Positions 44,048-57,912 of a DNA stretch of 64,000 bases are shown piece after piece; within the stretch, counting starts at the first letter, position 1, and every line of letters starts with the position of its first letter. The notes beneath the pieces are model-generated. The model saw only the letters and a list, made by a program, of their open reading frames with translations, was not told where the DNA came from and ran no database searches. Source of the stretch: Brevundimonas mediterranea (GTDB taxonomy: Bacteria > Pseudomonadota > Alphaproteobacteria > Caulobacterales > Caulobacteraceae); assembly GCF_011064825.1 (NCBI RefSeq), contig NZ_CP048751.1, positions 1,612,001 through 1,676,000 of the forward strand, in the 5' to 3' direction. The position numbers and the translations under genes are program-made.

Positions 44048-45883
44048 TTAACTGTTATGGTTACCTGTCCCAATCTGAGGCATTCTCAACGCGCGGGTGG
44101 TTCTACTGCGTCCTCCGGCGGGTATGGCGGCCTGGAAGGTCCGGCGGAACTGATCCCGCTTCTCGTGGATCGAGGCCAGAACCAAGCCCATGGGCACGCC
44201 CAGATCGACCAGGGTGTTCTCCGCCAGCTGCAGGCTGGCCTCGGTCGTTTCGGGCACCGCGTCGGTGACGCCCAAGGCATAGAGGCGCGCCGCATGTTGG
44301 TCGTCGCGGGCGCGGGCGATGATGATCAGGTCGTCGCGCAAGGCGCGAGCCGTGGTCACCACCTCGTCCACCTTGGTCGGGGCGTCCATGGTGACGATCA
44401 GGGCGCGGGTGGACAGGACGCCGCAATGCGCCAGCATCTCGGCGCGACCCGCGTCGCCGTAGAAGACGTCGAATCCGTCGCGACGTCCCGCCGCCACGGC
44501 GGCGGCGTCGGTGTCCAGGGCGATGAAGGCCTGGTCGTGTTCCTTCAGCAGCTCCCCGATCAGTCGTCCAACCCGGCCGAAGCCGACGATGATGACGGCG
44601 CCGTCGGCCTGTTCCGGCGGGGCTGCGCCCTCGGGCGTGGTCGGCAGGGCCGGCGCCTTTTCGCGCGACAGCCTCTGGCCCAGCAGGGCCAGGAGGGGAA
44701 TGGAGAAGATGCTCAGGGTCGCCGACAGGGCCACGGTGCTGGTCAGGGCCGGCGGGGCGATCCCCTCGACCATGCCGGTGGCGAAGACCACGAAGGCGAA
44801 CTCGCCCGCCGGCGCCAGGACCAGGGCGGTCTCCAGCGCCGGGCGCGCGCCCAGGCCCCACAGGCGCGCCAGGCCGAAGATGACGCCGGTCTTGACCACG
44901 GTGATGGCCAGGGCCAGGCCGAACAGCAGGACCGGATTGGCCGCGACCGCGCCCAGGTCCAGGCCCAGGCCGACCCCGACGAAGAAGACCCCCAGCAAAA
45001 GACCCTTGAACGGTTCGATGGAGACCTCGACCTCGCGCCTGAACTCGGTCTCGGCCAGAAGCACCCCGGCGACCAGGGCGCCGATGCTCATCGACAGGCC
45101 GCTGGCCTGGGCCGCCAGTCCGGCGACCACCACGACCAGCAGGCTGGCGGCGACGAACAGCTCGCCGCCCTGCGCCGACTTGCGCGCCTGGGCCACCGAG
45201 CGGAACATCGGCCGCAGCACCACACGACCCATAAGAACCAGCAGGCCCAGGCCGATGGCGGCCGGCACCAGGGTGAACAGCGACCGTCCCAGAACCGCCG
45301 GATCCAGCGACCCGCCCGCCTGGGCGACCGCAGCCATCACGCTGACGGTGATCAGGATGGGCGCGACCGACAGATCCTGGGCCAGCAGAATGGCGAAGGT
45401 CGACCGACCGACCGTACCCTTCAGCCGCCCGCTTTCGGCCAGGACCGGCATGACGACCGCCGTCGAGGACAGGGCCAGGCCCATGCCCAGCACCGCGGCG
45501 CTGACCAGGCTCTGGCCCAGCAGCACGAACAGGCCCGCCAGCACGAGGGTGCAGACGACGACCTGCATCAGCCCCAGGCCGAAGACGAGCCGCCGCATGG
45601 CGCGCAGCCGCTCCCACGACAGCTCCAGCCCGATCATGAACAGCAGGAAGGCGACGCCCAGTTCCGACAACTGCGCCAGCTGAACCGGATCGCTGATGGT
45701 GAAATAGGAGAGCCAGGGAAGCGTGTCCGAAAACCGCGCCAGCCCGCTGGGGCCCAACACCACCCCGGCGGCCAGAAAGCCCAGAACCGGACTGATCTTC
45801 AGTCGGTTGACCAGGGGTACGATCACCCCCGCCGCCGCCAGGAAGACCACCAGATCCTTGTAGTCTGCGCCGTGCCCCTGCAT
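44048..45883 (-). CDS. CPA2-family cation:proton antiporter with RCK/TrkA-N domain (KefB/KefC-like)
   Basis: The 611-residue protein has 12-13 hydrophobic segments in the first 390. These include the family FLLFMIGLELSWERLR, the GLALSSTAVVMPVL and LLAQDLSVAPIL core helices, and FFVGVGLGLDLGAV. A TrkA-N/RCK nucleotide-binding domain starts at about 423 with AVIIVGFGRVGRLIGELL. It resembles KefB/KefC potassium-proton antiporters but ends after the RCK_N domain and a helical tail. No KefF/KefG-like subunit gene is near. It is an inner-membrane protein, probably for K+/pH or electrophile stress. Confidence 0.92.
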   Translation of the reverse strand: MQGHGADYKDLVVFLAAAGVIVPLVNRLKISPVLGFLAAGVVLGPSGLARFSDTLPWLSYFTISDPVQLAQLSELGVAFLLFMIGLELSWERLRAMRRLVFGLGLMQVVVCTLVLAGLFVLLGQSLVSAAVLGMGLALSSTAVVMPVLAESGRLKGTVGRSTFAILLAQDLSVAPILITVSVMAAVAQAGGSLDPAVLGRSLFTLVPAAIGLGLLVLMGRVVLRPMFRSVAQARKSAQGGELFVAASLLVVVVAGLAAQASGLSMSIGALVAGVLLAETEFRREVEVSIEPFKGLLLGVFFVGVGLGLDLGAVAANPVLLFGLALAITVVKTGVIFGLARLWGLGARPALETALVLAPAGEFAFVVFATGMVEGIAPPALTSTVALSATLSIFSIPLLALLGQRLSREKAPALPTTPEGAAPPEQADGAVIIVGFGRVGRLIGELLKEHDQAFIALDTDAAAVAAGRRDGFDVFYGDAGRAEMLAHCGVLSTRALIVTMDAPTKVDEVVTTARALRDDLIIIARARDDQHAARLYALGVTDAVPETTEASLQLAENTLVDLGVPMGLVLASIHEKRDQFRRTFQAAIPAGGRSRTTRALRMPQIGTGNHNS

Positions 45884-46038
45884 TCGCCCTCCGTATCCCC
45901 GGCATGTGACCCGGAACCGCCGTCCCTGGCGAGACGTCGCGACCGTTTCATGAACTTTTTTTAAGGCGACAGCCCCAACCTCGGGTCTAGGGTCCGCTCC
46001 AACCTGCCCGCTTCAGGGGTGGAACCTAGGATACAGTG

Positions 46039-48159
46039 ATGAAAAGACTGCTTATCGGCGCCGCTGTCGGCGCCCTTTTGGCGCCTGCCGCCGCCTTCGC
46101 CCAGGACATCGACCACGACCACGCCTGTATCGACGAGACCTGCTCGATCGTCTCGCTGTTCTCGGGCGAGGAGACCGCAGCCGGCTGGCAGGGCGTGGAC
46201 GCCCCCCGCTACGGAACCTGGGGCTTCGATCTGAACGGCCGCGACACCTCGGTGAACCCGGGCGACGACTTCTTCCGCTACGCCAACGGCGCGGCCTTCG
46301 ACAAGCTGGTCATCCCCTCGGACCGCACCAGCTACGGCTCCTTCGCCCTGCTGCGCGAACTGTCGGATAACCGGATGAAGGAACTGGTCACGGGTCTGGC
46401 CGCACGCACCGACCTGACGCCCGGCTCGGATGAGGCCAAGGTGGCCGACGCCTATCGGTCCTATATCGACCAGGCGCGCATCGATCAGCTGGACGCCCAG
46501 CCGCTGCAGCCCTATCTGGCCGCCATCCGCGCCGCCGACAGCCATGATAAGATGGCCGTCTACATGGGCCAGACGGTCGGCCGTTTCGGCGGCTCCTTCT
46601 TCGGCACCGGCATCACCATCGACGCGAAACAACCGACCCGCTACGTTGTCTCGACCGGTCAGTCGGGCATCGGCCTGCCCAACCGCGACTATTATCTGGA
46701 CGCCCGCTACGCCGACAAGAAAGAGAAGTATCAGGCCTATGTCGCCGACATGCTGGGCATGATCGGCTGGGCGAACCCGGTCGAGACCGCCGCCCAGATC
46801 GTCGCTCTGGAGACCAAGATCGCCGGGGCGCACTGGACGCCGGTCGAGAACCGCAACCGCGACAAGACCTATAACGAGGTCACCATCGCAAAACTGACCC
46901 AGGATGCGCCCGGCTTCGATTGGCAGGCCTATTATGATGCGGCCGAACTGGGCGGCGTGCCCCGCCTGATCGTGCGTCAGGACACGGCCATGCCCAAGAT
47001 CGCGGCCCTCTACGCCGAGACGCCGATCGAACTGCTCCAGGCGTGGGAAGCCTTCCACACCGCCGACGACATGGCCCCCCTGCTGTCGCAACGGTTCTCG
47101 GACGCCCAGTGGGGCTTCCGCTCGCGTGACCTGTCGGGCCAGCCGGAACAGCGCACCCGCGAGAAGCGCGCCATCTCCTTCGCCGAGGGTTCGCTGGGCG
47201 AGGCGACGGGCCGGCTCTATGTCGCCCAGTATTTCCCGGCCGAGTCCAAGGCCAAGATGGAAGACCTGGTCGCCAATCTGCGCACCGCCCTGTCGCACCG
47301 CATCGACAACCTCAGCTGGATGGGCGACGAGACCAAGGCGGCGGCCCAGGAGAAGCTGCGGAAATTCACCGTCAAGATCGGCTATCCGGACAAGTGGCGC
47401 GACTATTCCGGCCTTGATATCCGTGCAGACGACCTGGTCGGCAACGCCGAGCGGCGCGGTCTGTTCGAGTGGAACTACGACCTCGCCCGTCTGAACGACC
47501 CGGTCGACAAGACCGAATGGGGCATGACGCCGCAGACGGTGAACGCCTACTACAACTCGGCCAATAACGAGATCGTCTTCCCGGCCGCCATCCTGCAACC
47601 GCCCTTCTTCGATCCGAACGGCGACCCGGCGGTCAACTACGGCGGCATCGGCGGCGTGATCGGCCACGAGATCGGCCACGGCTTCGACGACCAGGGCTCC
47701 AAGTCCGACGGCGACGGCGTGCTTCGCAACTGGTGGACGCCTGCGGACAAGGCCAATTTCGAGGCCCTGACCGCCCGTCTGGGCGCGCAATACGCTACCT
47801 ACGAACCGATCGCCGGCTACACCATCAACCCCGGTCTGACGATGGGCGAGAACATCGGCGACGCCTCGGGCGTGGCCGTGGGTCTTGAGGCCTATCATCT
47901 GTCGCTGGCCGGAAAGCCCGCCCCGGTGCTGGATGGAACGACCGGCGACCAGCGCTTCTTCTACGGCTGGGCCCAGGTCTGGCAGTCGAAATATCGCGAC
48001 GAGGCCCTGAAGCAGCAGGTCGCCACCGATCCGCACTCGGCCGCCCAGTTCCGGGTCATCGGCCCGCTGCGCAACGTCGACGCCTGGTACGACGCCTTCG
48101 ACGTCGAGCCGGGGACCAAATACTATCTGACGCCGGAAGAGCGCGTCCGCATCTGGTAG
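46039..48159 (+). CDS. M13-family zinc metallopeptidase (neprilysin/PepO type), secreted
   Basis: The 706-residue peptidase starts at ATG 46039; a GTG directly before it adds one residue. Its signal peptide ends APAAAFAQ near residue 22. The zinc site HEIGH is at 543-547, and the third ligand is Glu604 in MGENIGDASG with Asp608. The substrate motif NAYYNSANNEI lies near 505, and the C-terminal conserved Trp ends the protein. The first 45 mature residues include a short Cys pair. It is probably periplasmic or outer-membrane associated and cleaves oligopeptides. A strong terminator follows. Confidence 0.95.
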   Translation: MKRLLIGAAVGALLAPAAAFAQDIDHDHACIDETCSIVSLFSGEETAAGWQGVDAPRYGTWGFDLNGRDTSVNPGDDFFRYANGAAFDKLVIPSDRTSYGSFALLRELSDNRMKELVTGLAARTDLTPGSDEAKVADAYRSYIDQARIDQLDAQPLQPYLAAIRAADSHDKMAVYMGQTVGRFGGSFFGTGITIDAKQPTRYVVSTGQSGIGLPNRDYYLDARYADKKEKYQAYVADMLGMIGWANPVETAAQIVALETKIAGAHWTPVENRNRDKTYNEVTIAKLTQDAPGFDWQAYYDAAELGGVPRLIVRQDTAMPKIAALYAETPIELLQAWEAFHTADDMAPLLSQRFSDAQWGFRSRDLSGQPEQRTREKRAISFAEGSLGEATGRLYVAQYFPAESKAKMEDLVANLRTALSHRIDNLSWMGDETKAAAQEKLRKFTVKIGYPDKWRDYSGLDIRADDLVGNAERRGLFEWNYDLARLNDPVDKTEWGMTPQTVNAYYNSANNEIVFPAAILQPPFFDPNGDPAVNYGGIGGVIGHEIGHGFDDQGSKSDGDGVLRNWWTPADKANFEALTARLGAQYATYEPIAGYTINPGLTMGENIGDASGVAVGLEAYHLSLAGKPAPVLDGTTGDQRFFYGWAQVWQSKYRDEALKQQVATDPHSAAQFRVIGPLRNVDAWYDAFDVEPGTKYYLTPEERVRIW

Positions 48160-48180
48160 GCGGCGCCCATTCGAGAACGG

Positions 48181-48210
48181 AAAAGGCCGGGGTTCGCCCC
48201 GGCCTTTTTC
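48181..48210 (+). terminator. Rho-independent terminator after the M13 peptidase
   Basis: AAAAGGCCGGGG-TTCG-CCCCGGCCTTTT forms a perfect 12-bp stem with a UUCG-type tetraloop and a T5 run. It ends the M13 transcript 21 bases beyond the stop. Confidence 0.92.
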
Positions 48211-48303
48211 ATGGGCGGACGCCTCGACAAATCGCCCCGGAAACCTCGAGACCACATCGAAATAGTCTACATATTGTCCATGGCGCGGGCGGCTCCAGGC
48301 GCG

Positions 48304-48341
48304 AAAAAGCCCGCTGCGGGGGATACATCGCAGCGGGCTTT
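48304..48341 (-). terminator. Rho-independent terminator for minus-strand transcripts
   Basis: A perfect 13-bp inverted repeat, AAAGCCCGCTGCG / CGCAGCGGGCTTT, with a 10-base loop is followed on the minus strand by TTTTT (48308-48304). It would end hisS read-through and the candidate RNA between 48341 and 48484. It lies about 190 bases beyond the hisS stop, an unusually long 3' region. Confidence 0.85.
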
Positions 48342-48484
48342 CGCGCTCTTTGAAGAGCGGACGTTTCCTCCCCGAAACGCCTTCGAGTGCTGCGCGCTTG
48401 AGCAACGCTTGCCCTCGAGTGAGTTCATTTGGCCTATCGGACCCTGCGGCGTCAACGCACGTATCGGGCGGAGTCGAACTTTCT
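48304..48484 (-). ncRNA. Candidate structured RNA, possibly 6S-like
   Basis: Bases 48352 to 48486 can fold into one long interrupted hairpin. Pairings include GAAGA with UCUUC, GUUU with GAAC, CUCC with GGAG, CGA with UCG and ACGCC with GGCGU. This is a rod with internal loops, as in 6S RNA. On the minus strand a possible promoter (TTGCAC-N17-TGATAA, 48518-48490) starts at the base of the rod, and a strong terminator ends it, giving about 180 nt. The length and shape suit 6S, but I cannot confirm homology. A rod-like fold exists on either strand, so orientation rests on promoter and terminator. Confidence 0.4.
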
Positions 48485-48489
48485 TCGAC

Positions 48490-48518
48490 TTATCATTGAT
48501 AAGTCATATTTCGTGCAA
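48490..48518 (-). promoter_or_regulatory. Possible promoter of the RNA candidate, overlapping a palindrome
   Basis: On the minus strand TTGCAC (48518-48513), 17 bases, then TGATAA (48495-48490) form a plausible but weak promoter. The -10 lies in a perfect inverted repeat GACTTATC-ATT-GATAAGTC (48487-48505), which could bind a regulator. Confidence 0.35.
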
Positions 48519-48532
48519 GATATTCTCGAAGC

Positions 48533-50023
48533 TTATTCGATAATGGCTTGGATCGCAGCGATCAGGCCCTCCCGAGGGATCTTCATCTGGCCCGGACGCT
48601 CGGCCTTCCAGGCGTCGTTGTCGGTGATCCCGGCGGCGGCGGCGCGGCCGGCGTCCAGGTCCTTGATGGTGACTTCGCCCGCCGCAATCTCATCGCCGCC
48701 CAGGATGACGACGGCCGGAGAACCGCGACGGTCGGCGTATTTCATCTGGGCCTTCATGCCCGCACGGCCCAGATAGAGCTCGGCGGCGATCCCGGCGGCG
48801 CGCAGTTCGGCGACCGCGGCCAGATAATGAGCCATGTCGTCATCGGAAAAGACGATGACGACGACGGGGCCGCGCACGGCGTCTTCCGCCCCGCGGCCAG
48901 CGGCGCGCAGGGCCGAGGCCAGGCGCGAGACGCCGAAGGAGAAGCCGGTGGCGGGCACGCTCTGGCCGGTGAAGCGGGCGACCAGATCGTCATACCGCCC
49001 GCCGCCGCCGATGGAGCCGAACCGGACCGGACGGCCCTTGTCGTCCGTGGTCTCCAGCAGCAGTTCGGCCTCGAACACGGCACCGGTGTAATATTCCAGC
49101 CCACGCACGATGGTGGGATCGAACTTCACCGCCTCCTGGCCGACCCGCATGGCGCCCAGCGCCCGGTCGATGGCGGCCAGTTCGTTCAGCGCCGCTTCGC
49201 CCGCCGCGCCCAGGTCGCCCGAACGGGCGACGGCGTCCAGGGTCTCGGCTCGTGACAGGCCCGGCGTATTGGCCGAGGCCAGGAAGGCCTCGATGGCGCC
49301 GGTCACCCTGGCCGGAAGGCTTGCGCCCTTGGTGTAGTCGCCGGAGTCGTCCAGCCGGCCTTCGCCCAGCAGTTGGACGACGCCGTCCCAGCCCAGCCGG
49401 TCGAACTTGTCGATGGCGCGCAGGGCCGTCAGCCGCTGGCCCGCCTCGGTCACGCCGCCGGCGTCGAACAGACCGTCGAACAGCTTGCGGTTCGAGACGC
49501 GGATCTGGGCCTGGCCCGCATCAAGGCCGGCGGCGCCCAGACCCTCGCAGGCCATGGCGATGATCTCGGCGTCGGCCTCGGGCCGGTCCGAACCCACGGT
49601 GTCGGCGTCGCACTGCCAGAACTCGCGGAACCGGCCCGGCCCTGGCTTCTCGTTGCGCCACACCGGCCCATAGGCGTAGCGGCGGAACGGCTTGGGCAGG
49701 GTCTCCCAGGTCTGGGCCGCGAACCGGGCCAGAGGGGCGGTGTGGTCGTAGCGCAGGGCCATCCACTCGCCCGGCTCGTCCGAACCCGCATCGTCCTGGA
49801 GCGCGAACACGCCTTCATTGGGCCGGTCGGCGTCGGGCAGGAATTTGCCCAGGGCGTCGGCGTATTCGAAGGCCGGGGTCTCCAGCGGCTCGAAGCCCCA
49901 GCGCTCATAGACCTCCGACACGCGCGCCACGATGCGGCGTTCGGCGGTCAGGTCGCGGCCGCGCTTGTCGGCGAAGCCGCGCGGATTGCGGGCGAGGGGT
50001 CGAAGGGGGGCGTCATCGGTCAT
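48533..50023 (-). CDS. hisS: Histidyl-tRNA synthetase (alphaproteobacterial type)
   Basis: This class II synthetase has 496 residues. Motif 1 lies near residue 30. Motif 2 is RYAYGPVWRNEKPGPGRFRE, and the His-specific blocks are GLEYYTGAVFEAELL and IGGGGRYDDLVARFTG. The C-terminal anticodon domain is present in VVVIVFSDDDMAHYLA. In Caulobacter and relatives tRNA(His) lacks the usual G-1, and HisRS has changed its recognition residues accordingly; this sequence belongs to that divergent group by its motif-2 context. It is a single gene followed by a long 3' region. Confidence 0.96.
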   Translation of the reverse strand: MTDDAPLRPLARNPRGFADKRGRDLTAERRIVARVSEVYERWGFEPLETPAFEYADALGKFLPDADRPNEGVFALQDDAGSDEPGEWMALRYDHTAPLARFAAQTWETLPKPFRRYAYGPVWRNEKPGPGRFREFWQCDADTVGSDRPEADAEIIAMACEGLGAAGLDAGQAQIRVSNRKLFDGLFDAGGVTEAGQRLTALRAIDKFDRLGWDGVVQLLGEGRLDDSGDYTKGASLPARVTGAIEAFLASANTPGLSRAETLDAVARSGDLGAAGEAALNELAAIDRALGAMRVGQEAVKFDPTIVRGLEYYTGAVFEAELLLETTDDKGRPVRFGSIGGGGRYDDLVARFTGQSVPATGFSFGVSRLASALRAAGRGAEDAVRGPVVVIVFSDDDMAHYLAAVAELRAAGIAAELYLGRAGMKAQMKYADRRGSPAVVILGGDEIAAGEVTIKDLDAGRAAAAGITDNDAWKAERPGQMKIPREGLIAAIQAIIE

Positions 50024-50179
50024 GGCGCGCGCTTAAGCCAAGGGGGAGATGATCGCAACGTATCGCCGGCGGCCATGCAGGGCGCATACGCCTGTGAATT
50101 GCAGGCAGCCTGTTGTTCCTGCAAAGAAAAACCGGACCGCGAAGGAACAAAGGCGAAACGCTGTCCGTTGTTTCGCGCC

Positions 50180-50413
50180 ATGACCCCACACGCCGTCCTC
50201 GTCTCCAAGACCTGCATCACCTCCGATCACCGGACCATCCGGTGGTGGGAATGCGAATTGGTCGATGAGGACGGCGCCCGACGCATCCGCGAACAGGCCT
50301 TCTTCTCCATCGGCGAAGCTCGATCCTGGGCGTCGTCCCAGGGCTATCCGGTCGAGGAGGCGTCTTTGCCCGGGGGGCGGACGTCAAGGCCTTGGGTCCC
50401 GTCGCCGACGTGA
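50180..50413 (+). CDS. Hypothetical 77-aa protein
   Basis: The open frame from ATG 50180 encodes MTPHAVLVSKTCITSDHRT, then a Trp-Trp-Glu (TIRWWECEL) and GEARSWASSQGYPVEEA. Composition is protein-like, but no ribosome site precedes the ATG and no family is recognised. It lies between hisS and hslV, pointing at hslV, where hslU is often found. It may be a real small gene with a leaderless start or a chance frame. Confidence 0.4.
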   Translation: MTPHAVLVSKTCITSDHRTIRWWECELVDEDGARRIREQAFFSIGEARSWASSQGYPVEEASLPGGRTSRPWVPSPT

Positions 50414-50434
50414 TCTGAGCCCGTCGCGGGCCGA

Positions 50435-50989
50435 TCAGGGCTCCAGCGTCTCCACCGTCAGATTGCCGTTCGTATAGACGCAGATCTCGGCGGCGATCTT
50501 CATGGCCTTGCGGGCGACGGCCTCTGCGTCGAGGTCGGTCTCCTCGATCAGGGCGCGGGCGGCCGACAGGGCGTAGTTGCCGCCCGAGCCGACGGCGGCG
50601 ACCCCGTGTTCAGGCTCCAGCACGTCGCCGACGCCGGTGACGGTGAAGATCGACGACTTGTCGGCGACCAGAAGCATGGCCTCCAGCCGGCGCAGATAGC
50701 GGTCGGTGCGCCAGTCCTTGGCCAGGTCGACGCAGGCCCGCGCCAACTGGTCCGGATACTGCTCCAGCTTGGCCTCCAGCCGTTCGATCAGGGTGAAGGC
50801 GTCGGCTGTGGCGCCCGCGAAGCCGGCCAGCACCTTGCCGCCCGCCAGGGTCCGCACCTTGCGCGCCGCGCCCTTGACGATGGTGGGCCCCATGGAGACC
50901 TGACCGTCGCCCGCGATGACGGTGCGGCCGTTCTTGCGCACCGCCAGAATGGTGGTGCCGTGCCAGTCGGGAAAATTCGATTGAGTCAT
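50435..50989 (-). CDS. hslV: ATP-dependent protease subunit HslV (ClpQ)
   Basis: This is the 184-residue proteasome-like peptidase. A short propeptide ([11 protein letters not shown]) ends before the catalytic Thr in [20 protein letters not shown]. The [13 protein letters not shown] and [13 protein letters not shown] segments are also typical. HslV forms a dodecamer capped by the HslU ATPase and degrades misfolded or regulatory proteins under heat stress. hslU normally sits beside it but is not in the 64 kb, so the pair is split here. A sigma-32-like promoter lies directly upstream. Confidence 0.97.
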
Positions 50990-50996
50990 GATCCGC

Positions 50997-51025
50997 AGAT
51001 GGCGCGACGGGCCTCGTCGATCAAG
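50997..51025 (-). promoter_or_regulatory. Sigma-32-like heat-shock promoter of hslV
   Basis: On the minus strand CTTGATC (51025-51019), a 14-base spacer and CGCCATCT (51004-50997) match the RpoH consensus with one change in the -10. The expected start point falls at or within a base or two of the ATG at 50989, so the hslV message would be leaderless or nearly so. Confidence 0.5.
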
Positions 51026-51106
51026 AGCGCGCGACGCCGGATAACGTCGTCATATTTATACCCATGTTTCTCTTATAACGCGCCATCCTTGACCGGAAGA
51101 TCCGAC

Positions 51107-51532
51107 ATGGGAGATCGAAAATTGCTCTATCGCGTGCTTCTCGTGAGTGAAACAGTCGCGGCGGTTGAACGCTCGCCCTTGATGCTGGCTGACATTCTCG
51201 GCGCGTCTGAACGCAACAACCGTCGCGACATGATCGGCAGCGCCATGATGTTTCATGAGGGTCAGGCCGCCATGATGCTGGAAGGCATGCGCGCGGACCT
51301 CGATCGGTTGATCGCGCGCCTTCTTTCGGACGGTCGTCACCGAAATCTCAAGATCGTCGAGGATCGCCCCATCGTGCACCGTCGTGTGGCCGAGCCGGTC
51401 AAGCTCAACGCCATGTCGCCTCATCAGGCGGGCGAATATCTGGGCGGTCGCCGACTGGACCAGCTCGCCGCCTCGGTGCTGGAGCGGCTGTTGTCCTGCG
51501 ACGGATTGCGTGTCTCGAGCTGTGCGGTCTGA
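51107..51532 (+). CDS. Degenerate BLUF-like protein (photochemical residues lost)
   Basis: The 141-residue protein starts at ATG 51107, with GGAAG seven bases upstream. It aligns along the whole BLUF domain with the intact copy next door (ILGASERNNRR, MLEGMRADLDRLIARL, GRHRNLKIVE). It has lost the flavin chemistry set: the Tyr8 position is Leu12, the Gln52 position is Met56, and the FPGW Trp position is Pro97, while Asn38 remains. Flavin photochemistry is therefore unlikely. It may serve as a partner or decoy of the intact protein. It lies 82 bases upstream of that gene in the same orientation. Confidence 0.85.
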   Translation: MGDRKLLYRVLLVSETVAAVERSPLMLADILGASERNNRRDMIGSAMMFHEGQAAMMLEGMRADLDRLIARLLSDGRHRNLKIVEDRPIVHRRVAEPVKLNAMSPHQAGEYLGGRRLDQLAASVLERLLSCDGLRVSSCAV

Positions 51533-51614
51533 CGCCTTTGCTGCGTGTTTCGTTAACTCTATGGCCTTACTTCGGTCCTTGTGGCTGTAAATTGTAAAAG
51601 CGTAAGAGTAATCA

Positions 51615-52025
51615 ATGAGTTTGTTCCGTATTGTCTATGTCAGCGACGCCGTGGGCGACGCGGGCGTGGGCCTGCTGCCCCTGATCGACATCATCGGCGC
51701 GTCGGACCGGAACAATCGCCGGGATCATGTGACCGGGGTGCTGATGCGCCACGACGGCCGGTTCTTTCAGGCCATTGAGGGCGCGCGGGTCGACCTGGAT
51801 CGGTTGATGGGCCGGCTGCGCGCCGATCGACGCCACACCAATATCCGCATCCTCGCCGAGCTTGTGATCGATCAGCGCCTGTTCCCGGGGTGGGCCATGG
51901 CCCAGACGGACGCGTCGCCGGGGCTGGAGCGCCTGCTGGCCGAGGGGCTGGATCATACGAGCGTGAGCGCGAGCGCCGACAGGATCGTGTCGGAGGCGAG
52001 CCGGAGCCTGGCCGCCGTCTCCTGA
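51615..52025 (+). CDS. BLUF-domain blue-light photoreceptor
   Basis: This 136-residue short BLUF protein binds FAD and changes hydrogen bonding in blue light. The key residues are all present: Tyr8 in RIVYVS, Asn34 in SDRNNRRD, Gln52 in GRFFQAIEG and Trp93 in LFPGWAM. The spacing matches AppA/Slr1694-type BLUF domains exactly. After the domain only about 35 residues of helix follow, so the output must be through another protein. Its neighbours are a degenerate paralogue upstream and a ThiF/MoeB protein 38 bases downstream. Confidence 0.93.
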   Translation: MSLFRIVYVSDAVGDAGVGLLPLIDIIGASDRNNRRDHVTGVLMRHDGRFFQAIEGARVDLDRLMGRLRADRRHTNIRILAELVIDQRLFPGWAMAQTDASPGLERLLAEGLDHTSVSASADRIVSEASRSLAAVS

Positions 52026-52063
52026 GGCCTCGCGCCCAAGCCTGCCGCTCGCTAGAGAAGGGC

Positions 52064-52801
52064 ATGGTTTTCTCTGAAGACGAAGTCGAACGCTACGCCC
52101 GGCATCTGGTCCTGTCCGAGATCGGGGGGCCGGGCCAGCAGGCCCTGAAGCGTGCGCGGGTGCTGATCGTCGGGGCCGGCGGCGTGGGCGCACCGGCGGC
52201 CCTCTATCTGGCCGCAGCCGGCGTCGGGACGTTGGGTCTGATCGACGACGACGTGGTGGGTTTGTCGAACCTGCAGCGCCAGATCGCCTTTTCCACGCCC
52301 GAGGTGGGCCGGCCCAAGGTCGAAGCGGCCGCCGAACGCCTGGGCGGGCTGAACCCGCATGTGACGATCCAGACCTTCGCCGAACGGCTGACGCCGGACA
52401 ACGCCGCCGATCGGATCGGCGGTTTCGACATCGTGCTGGACGGGACCGATGATTTCGAGACCCGGCTGATCGTCAACGCCGCCTGTGTGGCGGCCGACAA
52501 GCCTCTGGTCTCGGGCGCCCTGGGGAGATGGAGCGGCCAGGTGGGGGTGTTCGCCGGTCGGCCCTGTTACCAGTGCCTAGTGCCCGAGGTTCCGCCGGAC
52601 GCCGAGACCTGCGCCCGTGTCGGCGTGGTCGGCGCCCTGGCGGGCGTGGTCGGGTCGATGGCGGCGCTGGAGACGATCAAGCTGATCACCGGGGCGGGCG
52701 AGGCTCTGGCCGGGCGGCTGATGCTGTACGACGGTCTGGCGGCGACGGCGCGGACGGTGCGGGTGACAGCCGACCCCCAGTGCCCGGTTTGCGGCGGCTG
52801 A
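52064..52801 (+). CDS. ThiF/MoeB/HesA-family adenylyltransferase
   Basis: The 245-residue E1-like enzyme starts at ATG 52064. It has an ATP-binding loop VLIVGAGGVGAPAALYL, LSNLQRQIAF with the Arg finger, and DGTDDFETRL. Zinc Cys pairs are CYQC and CPVC. The candidate catalytic Cys is in ETCARVGVVG. It is of the MoeB/ThiF size and lacks a rhodanese domain. It probably adenylates MoaD or ThiS; no partner is nearby, so which one is open. Its proximity to the BLUF genes is probably incidental. Confidence 0.92.
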   Translation: MVFSEDEVERYARHLVLSEIGGPGQQALKRARVLIVGAGGVGAPAALYLAAAGVGTLGLIDDDVVGLSNLQRQIAFSTPEVGRPKVEAAAERLGGLNPHVTIQTFAERLTPDNAADRIGGFDIVLDGTDDFETRLIVNAACVAADKPLVSGALGRWSGQVGVFAGRPCYQCLVPEVPPDAETCARVGVVGALAGVVGSMAALETIKLITGAGEALAGRLMLYDGLAATARTVRVTADPQCPVCGG

Positions 52802-52804
52802 ACC

Positions 52805-53056
52805 TCAGGCGGCCGTGGCGAAACGGACGTCGGCCAGATCCAGATCCGGGATGGGCGGGGCGAAGCCCAGGGCGGGGTTGCTGAGCACCGTCACCAGCCG
52901 CTCGCCGCAGTACAGATAGAGGGTCTCGAACCCGACCCAGGTCCGGGCGAGCTCGGCCAGAGCCTGATTCGCCGCCGAGTCGTCGGTCGCGCCCAGAACA
53001 CAGATGTCACGCACCGGAACGCCCGGCAGGTTGACGATACAATAGTAGGAGTCCAA
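52805..53056 (-). CDS. Hypothetical 83-aa protein
   Basis: The start chosen is TTG 53056 (product begins MDSYYCIVNLPGVPVRD), with GAGGA eight bases upstream. The frame stays open further upstream, but that part is Pro/Arg-rich and looks like a shadow. The protein has an ordered feel, with TDDSAANQALAELARTW and FETLYLYCGERLVTVL segments and two Cys. No family is recognised. It ends 3 bases after the ThiF gene on the opposite strand. Confidence 0.6.
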   Translation of the reverse strand: MDSYYCIVNLPGVPVRDICVLGATDDSAANQALAELARTWVGFETLYLYCGERLVTVLSNPALGFAPPIPDLDLADVRFATAA

Positions 53057-53175
53057 CGCACGCTTCCTCAGACAGGTCGCCGGAAACGAAGCTCGCTCGC
53101 GGCGGTTCCTCCCCTGCCCGTGGTTTTCGACAGCCGTGTGAGTCCGGTCCGACAGACTTGTGAAAAGGAGACCTG

Positions 53176-54381
53176 ATGGCCCGACGCCCCGCCTCGCCCA
53201 AACGTCTGAACGCCGCCAGCCTGGCGTCCCTGGGGGCGGAGCGGCTGGGCGAGCTTTTGATGCAGGCGGCGGACGGCGACGCCTTGTTGAAGCGGCGTCT
53301 GCGGCTGGTGCTGGCGGCCGAGGCGGGGGTCGAGCCCCTGACGGTCGAGCTGGACAAGCGGCTGACGGCCCTGGCGTCTGCACGGGCGCGGGTGTCCTGG
53401 CGCAAACGGCCGGACCTGCTGCGCGACCTCGACATGCTGCGCCGCGCGGTGGTGGAGGATCTGGCCCCGACGGCGCCCGTCGCCGGGCTGGATCGGTTGA
53501 TTGCCTGGTTCGACCTGTTTCGTGGGCTGACCTTGCGGGTCAAGGATCCGCGCGGCGAGATGACGGCGGCGTTCGAGGCGGCGGCTCCCGATCTCTGGAC
53601 CGTCGCTCAGACGGCGCTGATGGATCAGGCCGCTATGGAACGTCTGGCCGCCGCCATCGAACGCCATCCGCTCGACTACGCCCGCTGGATCGGCGCGGCG
53701 GGCGAGGCCCTGACGCCGGAACTGGCGCGGGCCGTGCTGGCGGGGCTGGACACCAGTTCGGGCGTCCGCGGCGCGCGCACGGCGATCCGGCGACTGGCGG
53801 ACCGGGCTGAGGATCTGGATCTGTGGCTGTGGTTGGTCACGCCCGATGAACAGGGCTCGCCGGATTTCGCGGCGGCGGCGGCGCGGCGGTTGCTGACGGC
53901 GGGCCGGGTGGTCGAGGCGCGGCAGGCCCTGGAGGCGGCGTTGAAGCCGTCGGCCGCGAACCGGCGCTTCACCTTCGGCCGGTCGCCCGCGGCGGGTCCG
54001 CCGCCCCTGACCCCGGCCTGGGAGGCGGCCTCCATCGACCTGCTGGAGGCAGAGGGGCGCAAGGCCGAGGCCCAGGACCTGCGCTGGGTCCTGTTCGAAC
54101 GCGACCTGTCGGCGCCGGCATTGCGTGACTATCTCGCCCGTCTGCCCGACTTCGACGATGTCGAGGCCCTGGACCGCGCCCTGGCCCATGCCGCGACCTA
54201 TGCGGACTTCGAGACCGCCCTGGGCTTCCTGATGGACTGGCCCGCCCACCGCGAGGCCGCCGCCCTGGTCGAACGCCGCGTCCGCGAGGTCCGGTCGCCC
54301 TTGGCGATGAAGGCCGACTGGGCGGCGCGGCTGGCGCAGAAATATCCGGATGCGGCCGAACGACTGCTGGCCGCGCCCTAA
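53176..54381 (+). CDS. DUF6880 family helical-repeat protein
   Basis: The 401-residue protein starts at ATG 53176, with AAAAGGAG upstream. It is almost all alpha-helical with repeated Ala/Leu/Arg helices (LARAVLAGLDTS, EDLDLWLWLVTPDEQG, FETALGFLMDWPAHREAA). It belongs to the DUF6880 group of TPR-like proteins of unknown role. Some members are annotated near toxin or stress genes, but there is no such context here. It is cytosolic. It overlaps the dehydrogenase gene end by 4 bases. Confidence 0.85.
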   Translation: MARRPASPKRLNAASLASLGAERLGELLMQAADGDALLKRRLRLVLAAEAGVEPLTVELDKRLTALASARARVSWRKRPDLLRDLDMLRRAVVEDLAPTAPVAGLDRLIAWFDLFRGLTLRVKDPRGEMTAAFEAAAPDLWTVAQTALMDQAAMERLAAAIERHPLDYARWIGAAGEALTPELARAVLAGLDTSSGVRGARTAIRRLADRAEDLDLWLWLVTPDEQGSPDFAAAAARRLLTAGRVVEARQALEAALKPSAANRRFTFGRSPAAGPPPLTPAWEAASIDLLEAEGRKAEAQDLRWVLFERDLSAPALRDYLARLPDFDDVEALDRALAHAATYADFETALGFLMDWPAHREAAALVERRVREVRSPLAMKADWAARLAQKYPDAAERLLAAP

Positions 54382-55364
54382 AGCATGGCTGGAATCACCC
54401 GGTCCGGCGGGCGGTGGCCGTTCTGGTAGGTCATGACATTGGCGATGACCCGGTCGCCCATGTCCTGGCGCGCCTCCAGCGTCGCCGAGCCCAGATGGGG
54501 CAGCAGCACGACATTGGGCTGGCCCAGCAGGCCGGGGTGGATGGCCGGCTCGTTCTCGAACACGTCCAGGCCGACGCCGGACAGGGACCGGGTCGCCACG
54601 GCCTGGGACAGGGCCGCCTCGTCGATCAGATCGCCCCGCGCGGTGTTGATCAATATGGCGTGGGGCTGAAGCCGGGCCAGGCGTTCGGCGGACAGCAGAT
54701 GATGCGTGTCTTTCGTCGCCGGGCAGTTCAGCGAGACGATGTCCATCCGCGCCAGCATCTGGTCCAGATCGTCCCAGTAGGTGGCGCCCAGTTCCTCCTC
54801 GATCAGGGCGGAGACGGGCTTCCTGTTGTGGTAATGGACCTGCAGGCCGAAGGCCCTGGCGCGACGAGCCAGGGCCTGGCCGATCCGGCCCATGCCGACG
54901 ATCCCCAGCCGCTTGCCCCACAGTTTGCGGCCGCACATCCAGGTCGGGGTCCAGCCCTCGAACCGCCCCTCGGCCACCACCTGGGCGCCCTCGACGATGC
55001 GGCGGCTGACGGCCAGGATCAGGCTCATGGCCAGGTCGGCGGTGTCCTCGGTCAGGACGCCGGGGGTGTTGGTGACGATGATCCCGCGCGCCACGGCCGC
55101 GTCGATGTCGATATGGTCCACCCCGGCGCCGAAGTTGGCGATCATCTTCAGCTGGTCGCCGGCGCCATTGATCAGGTCGGCGTCGATGACGTCGGTGATG
55201 GTGGGGACCAGAACCTCGGCGCGCTGAACCGCCGCCTGAAGCGCCGCCCGGTCCATCGGCTGGTCCTTCAGGTTCAGCTCGGCGTCGAAAAGCTCGCGCA
55301 TCCGCGTCTCGACCGCGTCGGGCAGGCGTCTGGTTAATACGACCTTAAGCTTGCGGACGGACAT
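54378..55364 (-). CDS. D-2-hydroxyacid dehydrogenase (glyoxylate/hydroxypyruvate reductase type)
   Basis: The 328-residue NAD(P)-dependent dehydrogenase has an N-terminal substrate domain with NFGAGVDHIDIDAA. The Rossmann loop is GIVGMGRIGQALARRA near 152-167. The catalytic Arg is in NTARGDLIDEAAL and the Glu in DVFENEP. The His is in LLPHLGSATLEARQ. Features and length fit glyoxylate reductase-type enzymes; the specific acid is unknown. The CtrA-like box at 55334-55348 lies within its first codons but upstream of the divergent SH3 gene. Confidence 0.93.
   Translation of the reverse strand: MSVRKLKVVLTRRLPDAVETRMRELFDAELNLKDQPMDRAALQAAVQRAEVLVPTITDVIDADLINGAGDQLKMIANFGAGVDHIDIDAAVARGIIVTNTPGVLTEDTADLAMSLILAVSRRIVEGAQVVAEGRFEGWTPTWMCGRKLWGKRLGIVGMGRIGQALARRARAFGLQVHYHNRKPVSALIEEELGATYWDDLDQMLARMDIVSLNCPATKDTHHLLSAERLARLQPHAILINTARGDLIDEAALSQAVATRSLSGVGLDVFENEPAIHPGLLGQPNVVLLPHLGSATLEARQDMGDRVIANVMTYQNGHRPPDRVIPAML
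55334..55348. promoter_or_regulatory. Candidate CtrA box TTAA-N7-TTAA
   Basis: TTAA at 55334-55337 and TTAA at 55345-55348 are exactly seven bases apart, matching the CtrA-P binding consensus of Caulobacterales. In DNA this GC-rich, eight fixed A/T bases are rare. The box lies about 85 bases before the SH3-protein gene and 16 to 30 bases inside the dehydrogenase gene, so the SH3 gene is the better target. Confidence 0.5.
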
Positions 55365-55430
55365 TGCGGGCCTTGGTTAGCGGGCGGCGATTTCAGGATC
55401 GAAAGCCCGCGCGACGGGTCGTTCCATCCA

Positions 55431-56003
55431 GTGTCTAGCAAAGCCTCCGCCATCTTCCAAAGCCTGCGACGCCGCAGCGCCCTCGCCCTGGCCATTCTGG
55501 GCGTGGGCCTCATGGCCGGCGCGGGCGCGACCATGCCCGACGGCCGGCCCACGCCGACGGGGCTGGAGGTGCCGCGCTGGATCTCGCTGAAGTCGTCGCA
55601 CGTGCGCGCGCGTCAGGGACCGGGGCTGGACTATCCGATCCTGTGGGAATACCGCGCCGCCGGCCTGCCGGTGCAGGTGGTCGCCGAGACGACGGAATGG
55701 CGCAAGATCTGCGACCCGGACGGGGCCGTGGCCTGGATCCACCGCACGGTGTCGTCGGGCCGCCGGTCCGTCTTCAACACCTCGCCCGAAGAAGTGATGA
55801 TCCACGCCGGCAAGTCCCAGGCCTCGGCCGTGCGGGCGCGCCTGTCGCCCCGTTCGCTGGTGTCGCTGGACGAGTGCGAGGACGGCTGGTGCCAGGTTCG
55901 GGCGCGCCGCCTGCGCGGCTGGGTCCAGGAACGGGCGGTGTTCGGAACCCAGCAGAGGGCGCTGTGCAACGCCAACCGCCCCGCCGGGACCGGTCGGGAC
56001 TGA
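55431..56003 (+). CDS. SH3-domain exported protein
   Basis: The 190-residue protein starts GTG 55431; other starts are possible. A hydrophobic segment (SALALAILGVGLMAGAGA) near 16-33 is a signal peptide or anchor. Two bacterial SH3 repeats follow: SSHVRARQGPGLDYPILWEY at about 55-74, and AVRARLSPRSLVSLDECEDG near 130 with WCQVRARRLRGWVQE. Such proteins bind cell wall or envelope partners. It may be cell-cycle controlled through the CtrA box upstream. fabA follows 77 bases downstream. Confidence 0.85.
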   Translation: MSSKASAIFQSLRRRSALALAILGVGLMAGAGATMPDGRPTPTGLEVPRWISLKSSHVRARQGPGLDYPILWEYRAAGLPVQVVAETTEWRKICDPDGAVAWIHRTVSSGRRSVFNTSPEEVMIHAGKSQASAVRARLSPRSLVSLDECEDGWCQVRARRLRGWVQERAVFGTQQRALCNANRPAGTGRD

Positions 56004-56080
56004 CCGCCGTAACCCTTGGTGTTGAGCGAAGTCGCGCGGTCGTGTAACCCGCCAGCAACAGCAGACGTAACGGAACCGCC

Positions 56081-56617
56081 TTGACCCAGTCCCAATATCC
56101 CTCGTCCTTCGATCACGAGGCCCTGCTCGCCTCCGGGCGCGGCGAACTGTTCGGTCCCGGCAATGCGCAACTGCCCGCCCCGCCGATGCTGATGTTCGAC
56201 CGGATCACCCAGATCTCGGCTGACGGCGGCGCGCACGGCAAGGGCTATGTCGAGGCCGAACTCGACATCAATCCCGAGCTCTGGTTCTTCCAGTGCCACT
56301 TCATCGGCGACCCGGTCATGCCGGGCTGCCTGGGCCTGGACGCCATGTGGCAACTGGTCGGCTTCTATCTGGGCTGGATCGGCGGCCCGGGCCGCGGCCG
56401 CGCCCTGGGCGTCGGCGAGGTCAAGTTCACGGGCCAGGTCACCCCGGACATCAAGAAGGTGGTCTACAAGATCAACCTGAAGCGGGTCATCAATCGCAAA
56501 CTGGTCATGGGCATCGCCGATGGCGTGCTGGAGGCCGACGGCGAGGTGATCTACACCTGCAATGACATGCGGGTGGGACTCTTTGGCGCCGCCAAGGATG
56601 AGCAAGCGGGCGCCTAA
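56081..56617 (+). CDS. fabA: 3-hydroxydecanoyl-ACP dehydratase/isomerase
   Basis: FabA introduces the double bond for unsaturated fatty acids. The 178-residue enzyme has its active site His in [11 protein letters not shown] and Asp in [15 protein letters not shown], both present. The start is TTG at 56081 with GGAACCGCC upstream. It acts with FabB, encoded 77 bases downstream. In related genomes irr or other genes may precede fabA; here an SH3-protein gene does. Confidence 0.97.
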
Positions 56618-56694
56618 ACGCCTATATAACCGCGGACAGCGCGGAAGGCCCCCGCTCGAGAAGCTCGGGTCGAGAAGCTTAAGAAGGAAACACC

Positions 56695-57912
56695 ATGCGT
56701 CGTGTCGTCGTCACCGGCCTGGGCATCGTCTCTTCCATCGGCCACGGCGCCGAAGAGGTGACCCAGTCCCTGCGCGAAGCCCGTTCGGGCGTAGTCCATG
56801 CGCCCGATCACGCCAAATACGGCTTCCGCAGCCAAGTCTGGGCCCCGCCCAAGATCGGCCCGTGGGAAGAACTGATCGACCGCCGCGCCGCCCGCTTCCT
56901 GGCCAACGGCACGGCCTGGGCCCACATCGCCTTTGAAGAGGCGCTGAAGTCGTCGGGCATGACGGCCGAAGAGATTCGCGACGACCGCATCGGCCTGATC
57001 GTCGGCGAGGGCGGCCCCTCGACCCAGGTGATCCTCCAGGCGGCGGCGACCACCATCGAGAAGACCTCGCCCAAGCGGATCGGCCCGTTCGCCGTGCCGA
57101 AAGCCATGGCGTCCGGCCCCTCGGCCGTCCTGTCCACCTGGTTCCAGATGCGCGGCGTCAACTATTCGATCAGCTCTGCCTGCGCGACCTCCGCCCACTG
57201 CATCGGCGCCGGGGTCGAACAGATCCAGTGGGGCAAGCAGGACGTGGTCTTCGCCGGCGGCTGCGAGGACATCGACTGGTCCATGTCGAACATGTTCGAC
57301 GCCATGGGCGCCATGTCATCCGACTTCAACGAGACCCCGTCCGTCGCCTCGCGGGCCTATGACGTCAACCGCGACGGCTTCGTCATCGCCGGCGGCGCCG
57401 GCGTCGTGGTGCTGGAAGAATACGAGCGGGCCAAGGCGCGCGGCGCGACCATCTATGCCGAAGTCACCGGCTATGGCGCCAATTCCGACGGCTACGACAT
57501 GGTCGCCCCCTCAGGCGAGGGCGCCCAGCGCTGCATGAAGATCGCGCTGGAACAGGCCGGCAATCCGAAGATCGACTATCTGAACCCGCACGGCACCTCG
57601 ACCCCGGTCGGCGACTCCAAGGAAATGGAGGCCGTCCGCGCCATCTTCGGCGACCAGATGCCGATGATCTCCTCGACCAAGTCGCTGACGGGCCACTCGC
57701 TCGGCGCGGCGGGCGCTCAAGAGGCCATCTACTGCCTGCTGATGATGCAGAACGGTTTTGCGGCCGAGAGCGCCCATATCGAGACCCTGGATCCGGCCTT
57801 CGAGGGCATGCCCATCCTGCGTCAACGCCACGAGGGCGAACTGACCCACGTCATGTCCAACAGCTTCGGCTTCGGCGGCACCAACGGCACGCTGATCCTG
57901 TCCAAGGTCTGA
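56695..57912 (+). CDS. fabB: 3-oxoacyl-ACP synthase I
   Basis: FabB extends cis-unsaturated acyl chains. The 405-residue protein has the catalytic Cys in [14 protein letters not shown], and the two His in [14 protein letters not shown] and [15 protein letters not shown]. The ATG at 56695 has AAGGA nine bases upstream. fabI, which often follows in alphaproteobacteria, is absent. Downstream lies a REP-like palindrome, then asd. Confidence 0.97.

Follow-up and report, generated by a model that had tools for sequence, protein, structure and literature searches.

BLUF proteins with and without the photochemical Tyr

The closest described relatives of the genes discussed here are the short BLUF photoreceptors PixD/Slr1694, TePixD/Tll0078, BlrB and BlsA, which like both members of our gene pair are stand-alone Pfam BLUF proteins of about 136-140 aa. 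Short BLUFs such as BlrB and BlsA are described, in excerpts of PMC8508746, as acting through binding to other proteins, and the output of BlsA and BluF/YcgF goes by protein-protein contact with no attached enzyme. AppA also works by contact, as an antagonist of the regulator PpsR (excerpts of PMC4844311). An output of this kind is proposed below for the first gene of the pair, copy 1. However, BlsA, BluF/YcgF and AppA act on regulators, whereas at the hslV-moeB locus no adjoining regulator gene is seen. The second gene, copy 2, shares the full photochemical set of the short photoreceptors; copy 1 differs from them in lacking the Tyr, Gln and Trp, and it belongs to a locus family which has repeatedly lost the Tyr in nature.

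This Tyr is described as strictly conserved in all BLUF domain proteins, and in every case named in the excerpts of PMC9486806 its replacement by Phe gives a photoinactive protein. An AppA mutant containing Y21F is photoinactive, retains its flavin and resembles the light-adapted state, according to excerpts of PMC7005313. These laboratory mutants (AppA Y21F-type, OaPAC Y6F and PixD Y8F) carry the same replacement at the same site as 28 of 133 natural copies at our locus. They are engineered and have the Gln in place, and in the single mutants the Trp as well, whereas most of the natural copies are also without the Trp and those of the window's clade also without the Gln. Searches of open-licence papers turned up neither a study of BLUF proteins in Brevundimonas nor a BLUF which naturally lacks the Tyr, a negative which is weak because of this limit on the papers covered.

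The gene pair in the window

The window, i.e. the whole stretch of 64,000 nucleotides which was analysed, comes from Brevundimonas mediterranea. The two BLUF genes lie on the same strand with 82 bp between them, and are flanked by a divergent gene which we take from its sequence to be hslV and by a gene presumably of the moeB/hesA/thiF family (Table 1). Copy 1 matches the Pfam BLUF model PF04940 with 53.5 bits (E 2.6e-14) and copy 2 with 82.8 bits (E 2e-23), both above the cut-off of 25; NCBIfam gave no match for either at E up to 1. No other BLUF match is found in the whole 3.38-Mb single-contig genome.

Table 1. Positions in the window of the two BLUF genes, their neighbours and the sites discussed in the text
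Feature	Position	Strand	Remarks
hslV (divergent), anchor on the left side	50435..50989	-	ORF list, tblastn synteny
Heat-shock-like hslV promoter (CTTGATC, 16 bp, CCATCTGC)	50995..51025	-	inside divergent gap, conserved
Copy 1, BLUF-fold protein	51122..51532	+	136 aa from TTG 51122; 141 aa from ATG 51107
Copy 1 codon CTC, Leu12 (ATG numbering), photochemical Tyr site	51140..51142	+	
Copy 1 codon AAC, Asn38 (ATG numbering), flavin-contacting Asn site	51218..51220	+	
Copy 1 codon ATG, Met56 (ATG numbering), photochemical Gln site	51272..51274	+	
Copy 2, short BLUF with the full photochemical set, 136 aa	51615..52025	+	
moeB/hesA/thiF-type gene, right anchor of the locus	52064..52801	+	ORF list, tblastn synteny

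An earlier note, made from the sequence alone, had described two adjacent BLUF genes on one strand, the second with every key residue in place and the first with Leu, Met and Pro at the Tyr, Gln and Trp sites and only the Asn left. A check by script gave the same picture. Copy 2 has Tyr8, Asn34, Gln52, Trp93 and Met95 in the canonical places and is thus a short BLUF with all photochemical residues; copy 1, in the numbering from ATG 51107, has Leu12, Met56 and Pro97 and keeps Asn38. When copy 1 is aligned by HMMER with PixD/Slr1694 (2hfn), Leu12 stands opposite the Tyr and Met56 opposite the Gln, in an alignment which is gapped towards its end and breaks off right before the Trp. The LYR...VSE block is free of gaps both in the rows of the locus alignment and against PixD, which rules out a misalignment at the Tyr site. 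In strand 5 of copy 1 the columns of the semi-conserved Trp and the conserved Met hold Pro and Lys. A shift by one residue at the Trp site (Pro97 or Val98) is immaterial since copy 1 has no Trp anywhere in the protein, and the same is true in all 7 genomes of the window's clade. The bulky Phe-Phe beside the Gln site has become Ala-Ala. A protein of this composition would be unable to run the BLUF photocycle.

Copy 1 is probably the gene of 136 aa beginning with TTG, since all 13 upstream regions which were aligned have a start codon as codon 6 (TTG 10, GTG 2, ATG 1) while the in-frame ATG at 51107 occurs, among these rows, only in this genome and in G105. In the aligned regions codon 6 is preceded by a purine-rich block resembling an RBS. 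With the TTG start the four sites become Leu7, Asn33, Met51 and Pro92. The ATG start of copy 2 is kept in 7/7 genomes of the clade.

The divergent gap holds a putative promoter on the hslV side, of which the ATGGC and ATCAAG blocks are invariant in the 13 aligned upstream regions; it is called heat-shock-like for its resemblance to the sigma-32 consensus. In the clade of stand-alone Tyr-less (blind) copies described below, copy 1 is preceded by a TTGACC...GCTAGAA block, presumably akin to the Caulobacter housekeeping promoter. A simple sigma-70 scan of positions 50950-52150 found no promoter, and there is no tRNA in 45000-57000. The G+C content of the BLUF stretch (51000-51999) is 60-63%, against 63-73% in the remaining 500-base bins of 48000-54999, most of which reach at least 67. 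A plasmid origin was rejected: blastn against a plasmid collection gave no match, and synteny at the locus extends over the genus.

The hslV-moeB locus across Brevundimonas

The window pair is one instance of a BLUF locus which is found throughout the genus. In our sample of 131 Brevundimonas genomes, each gave a stretch with hslV and/or moeB, and a BLUF gene was counted as being at the locus when it lay between these two, or no more than 1.4 kb away on the proper side of the sole visible anchor. The HslV protein was found in 125 genomes (E<=1e-30); the locus was placed by moeB alone in G037, G040, G075, G086, G113 and G116, which gave no HslV match, and by hslV alone in a few, e.g. G026 and G092. 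By this definition 121 of the 131 genomes have a BLUF gene at the locus and 10 have none, the absence being less sure for two of the ten (G059 and G117) because they were seen without moeB. Two open frames are present in 17 genomes, of which 15 are true tandems, since the frames in G049 and G099 (L176 and L183) look like pieces of one broken locus BLUF. The earlier note had proposed looking for the pair in related genomes, and with a tandem in 15/131 it is evidently not a peculiarity of this strain.

A sample of 299 genomes of the family contained 128 which gave a match, those of Brevundimonas among them. Among the matches listed, the proteins of other genera were 26-38% identical to copy 1, which suggests that the blind BLUF family may be specific to Brevundimonas. 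It should be mentioned that further same-strand BLUF pairs exist away from the hslV-moeB locus, at G082:C112:63248-64009 and at L162 (G120).

Loss of the photochemical residues

For the scoring of residues 133 intact locus copies were used, after exclusion of two loci duplicating G027/G105, the broken copies of G049 and G099, and the copy of G019, which lacks its N-terminus. The Tyr is kept in 89 of them and replaced in 44, by Phe (28), Ile (8), Leu (7) or Val (1). Replacement of the Gln, by Met, Leu, Val, Ile or His, is found in 16, of which 13 are also without the Tyr and 3 have it. Pro occupies the Trp site in 100 of the 142 rows of the locus alignment, a number which includes the rows dropped from the 133. 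In G078, G119 and G121 (L098, L195 and L061) the Tyr is kept and the Gln has become His, the reverse order of loss.

The losses were placed on two trees. A gene tree built without the photochemical columns requires at least 9 changes of Tyr presence, and a tree of hslV plus moeB at least 11 for the copy nearest to hslV, where 42 of 119 scored genomes have no Tyr; both trees are quick and unrooted with many unresolved forks, and the numbers are minima on one tree each. For a correlation between the loss of Tyr and that of Gln there are only 4 independent pairs on starred branches.

Copy 1 might still respond to light by another route, e.g. by photoreduction of the flavin. The OaPAC Y6F protein is photoinactive and yet photoreduced, with a Trp as the electron donor (excerpts of PMC9486806), and the flavin cradle of the locus family is conserved. 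We nevertheless consider this quite improbable, because the Trp, the other donor that is known, has been lost: it is absent from copy 1 in 7/7 genomes of the window's clade, and among the locus copies without Tyr 84 percent carry Pro in its place.

The BLUFs found elsewhere in the same genomes served as a control. In the first 82 of these the Tyr, the Gln and Asn34 are kept in 82/82 and the Trp in 80. A second batch consisted of the 40 lowest-scoring of the 65 remaining matches, 35 of them scorable at the Tyr site; the Tyr is kept in 32 of the 35, the exceptions being G101 (Phe), G032 (Cys) and G065 (Phe). The Gln is absent in 5 of the 40 (G110, G102, G001, G032 and G026), and the Asn in 11 of the 40, mostly in divergent, longer proteins. 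Loss of the residues is thus not wholly confined to the locus. Altogether 114 of 117 scorable non-locus BLUFs have the Tyr, the control covering all but about 25 of roughly 147 matches, and the difference in Tyr loss between locus and non-locus copies has a crude Fisher p of 7e-11 which ignores kinship.

Some of the non-locus proteins deserve mention in their own right. L281 in G101 has Phe for the Tyr with Gln and Trp kept, and is a natural match to the laboratory Y-to-F mutants. Seven Brevundimonas genomes have a frame of 275-305 aa with a BLUF domain lacking the flavin Asn, at L304:1441-2277 (-) and L307:1438-2310 (-) and with related matches in L305, L306 and L308-L310. The two which were scanned give weak helix-turn-helix Pfam matches below cut-off in the N-terminus, and by eye their frames adjoin a PAS/histidine-kinase-like gene; it is possible that these proteins are BLUF transcription factors. 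A match joining LysR and BLUF (P0031) was discarded, as it looks like a chimeric assembly.

Conserved residues and selection

While the redox partners are repeatedly lost, other positions stay. Asn34 and Asp71 do not change at the locus on the gene tree, the Asn being present in 133/133 intact copies; there is one change at Arg73, and there are two at Asn33, three at Arg67 and nine at His74. In BLUF proteins the Asp, Arg and His residues of this motif help to hold the flavin. Asn31 and Asn32 of Slr1694 have been modelled in the active site together with the flavin, Tyr and Gln (excerpts of PMC9853863), and His44 and Asn45 of AppA belong to the hydrogen-bond network of the flavin (excerpts of PMC7005313). 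Donors lost and cradle kept is a pattern which fits continued flavin binding without proving it. The conserved NNRRD could also be structural rather than related to the flavin, and the Ala-Ala by the Gln site of copy 1 could mean an empty, repacked pocket, which would count against flavin binding.

Copy 1 is under purifying selection. Over the 21 pairs of the window's clade the dN/dS (Nei-Gojobori) of copy 1 ranges from 0.13 to 0.34 and that of copy 2 from 0.14 to 0.42, and the median over 45 pairs of the stand-alone blind clade is 0.12. In sister pairs the values for copies 1 and 2 are 0.12 and 0.15 (G030/G079), 0.15 and 0.28 (G024/G112), and 0.38 and 0.40 (G050/G053); single values are rough since some pairs have a high dS. 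The earlier note had named a pair confined to one strain, with a first gene free of constraint, as what would speak against its reading; this is not what is found, either in the number of tandem genomes or in the dN/dS of copy 1.

These values also bear on the idea that copy 1 is a pseudogene which is decaying and will be lost, to which the loss of key residues might point, as might the fact that other members of the genus have a broken locus gene (G049 and G099) or none (10 genomes). The frame is unbroken in 15/15 tandem genomes, though, the start codon stands behind its RBS-like block in 13/13 aligned rows, Asn34 and Asp71 are invariant, and the Phe state has been long-lived in a clade of 10 genomes. 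Decay is in our opinion hardly credible, and the dN/dS, the region around the start and the recurrence in the genus led us to reject both a pseudogene and an annotation artefact.

The constraint is distributed differently in the two copies. Over 12 tandem genomes (the 15 less G050, G053 and G130), mean identity in the core is 0.62 for copy 1 and 0.73 for copy 2, and in the C-terminal tail it is 0.50 for copy 1 and 0.36 for copy 2. The tail of copy 1 is more conserved than that of copy 2 in 54/66 pairs and its core less conserved in 61/66; the 66 pairs are not independent, and of four near pairs G030/G079 and G023/G096 show hardly any difference in the tail.

Partners or independent copies

The earlier note had proposed a heteromeric light switch in which copy 2 senses light and copy 1, itself not photoactive, is the effector, chaperone or antagonist. 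The part concerning copy 1 agrees with its lack of Tyr, Gln and Trp, and the proposal has further points in its favour: the genes are adjacent and on the same strand, both are constrained by dN/dS, and Tyr and Gln, both lost from copy 1 in the window's clade, are present in copy 2 in 7/7 genomes there (in G096 the Trp of copy 2 has become Phe).

The distribution over the genus is at variance with a switch as the general role of the locus. The tandem state needs 5 changes on the hslV plus moeB tree, and the clade around the window alternates between genomes with the tandem, with copy 1 only and with copy 2 only. Ten genomes which are sister to the tandem genomes G024/G112 have only a Tyr to Phe copy at the locus, and the gene tree groups these ten stand-alone blind copies with copy 1 (SH-aLRT 89, at an unstarred fork). 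G011 and G046, which adjoin the tandem genomes G050/G053, have the sighted copy only. In G030 and G079 (L077 and L075) both tandem copies have Phe for Tyr and no Trp at its site. Altogether 30 of 118 scored genomes have no locus BLUF with the Tyr, and in G018, G075, G113 and G128 a blind copy is the sole BLUF match of the genome; G018 and G128 are single-contig genomes which are given as 100 percent complete. An obligate pair across the genus is ruled out by the sister lineages which have one copy and not the other, in both directions. A heteromeric light switch could work only with a sighted copy present, yet genomes with only blind copies and genomes with both copies blind occur, and for this reason it is not the general role of the locus. 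We hold the proposal as a whole to be unlikely. Within the window's own clade heteromerization is possible, since there copy 2 is intact at Tyr and Gln in all seven genomes and a local partnership could exist. For the genus as a whole the two copies would rather be old paralogues which have been kept or dropped independently than members of an obligate complex.

A light receptor possibly turned to other use

The reading which we prefer, and consider fairly probable, is that copy 1 is a member of a genus-wide family of locus BLUFs in which the redox partners (Trp, Tyr and in places Gln) have repeatedly been lost with the cradle and the frame kept, and that it would be a light-insensitive, flavin-binding interaction module. 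The loss of redox partners, with the cradle residues and the frame kept by purifying selection, is computed from the locus family, and copy 2 with its complete photochemical set comes from the same locus. The module itself is predicted from these patterns. Copy 1 should still bind flavin, and it would work by protein-protein interaction in the manner of an anti-regulator, either held permanently in a single state or responding to flavin occupancy or redox rather than to light. A binding partner which is constitutive, or responsive to redox or flavin, is the likeliest role because short BLUFs act by binding other proteins. The neighbours of the locus look, by eye, like housekeeping genes.

Since the laboratory Tyr to Phe mutants are photoinactive and the AppA mutant is lit-like, the Tyr to Phe proteins of the locus are read as BLUFs which are insensitive to light by nature and perhaps lit-like; copy 1, in which the Gln is gone as well, may be one step further along. 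Somewhat more tentatively, a blue-light receptor may have been converted several times independently to a light-independent flavoprotein regulator, by removal of the donors with the cradle and the output tail kept, the signal being flavin occupancy or redox, or a permanent lit-like lock.

A natural, selected and repeatedly evolved Tyr-less BLUF family contradicts the statement that the Tyr is strictly conserved, and yet varies a fold and a family that are already known. The locus offers a natural series, with the Trp gone, Tyr to Phe, Tyr to Leu or Ile, and Gln to Met, Leu, Val, Ile or His, and with this series one can ask what the BLUF fold does without light, whether the Tyr-less forms are locked in the signalling state, and how photoreceptors lose their sense. 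It seems that in several Brevundimonas lineages a light receptor has more than once been given a role for which light is not needed, and that selection keeps it.
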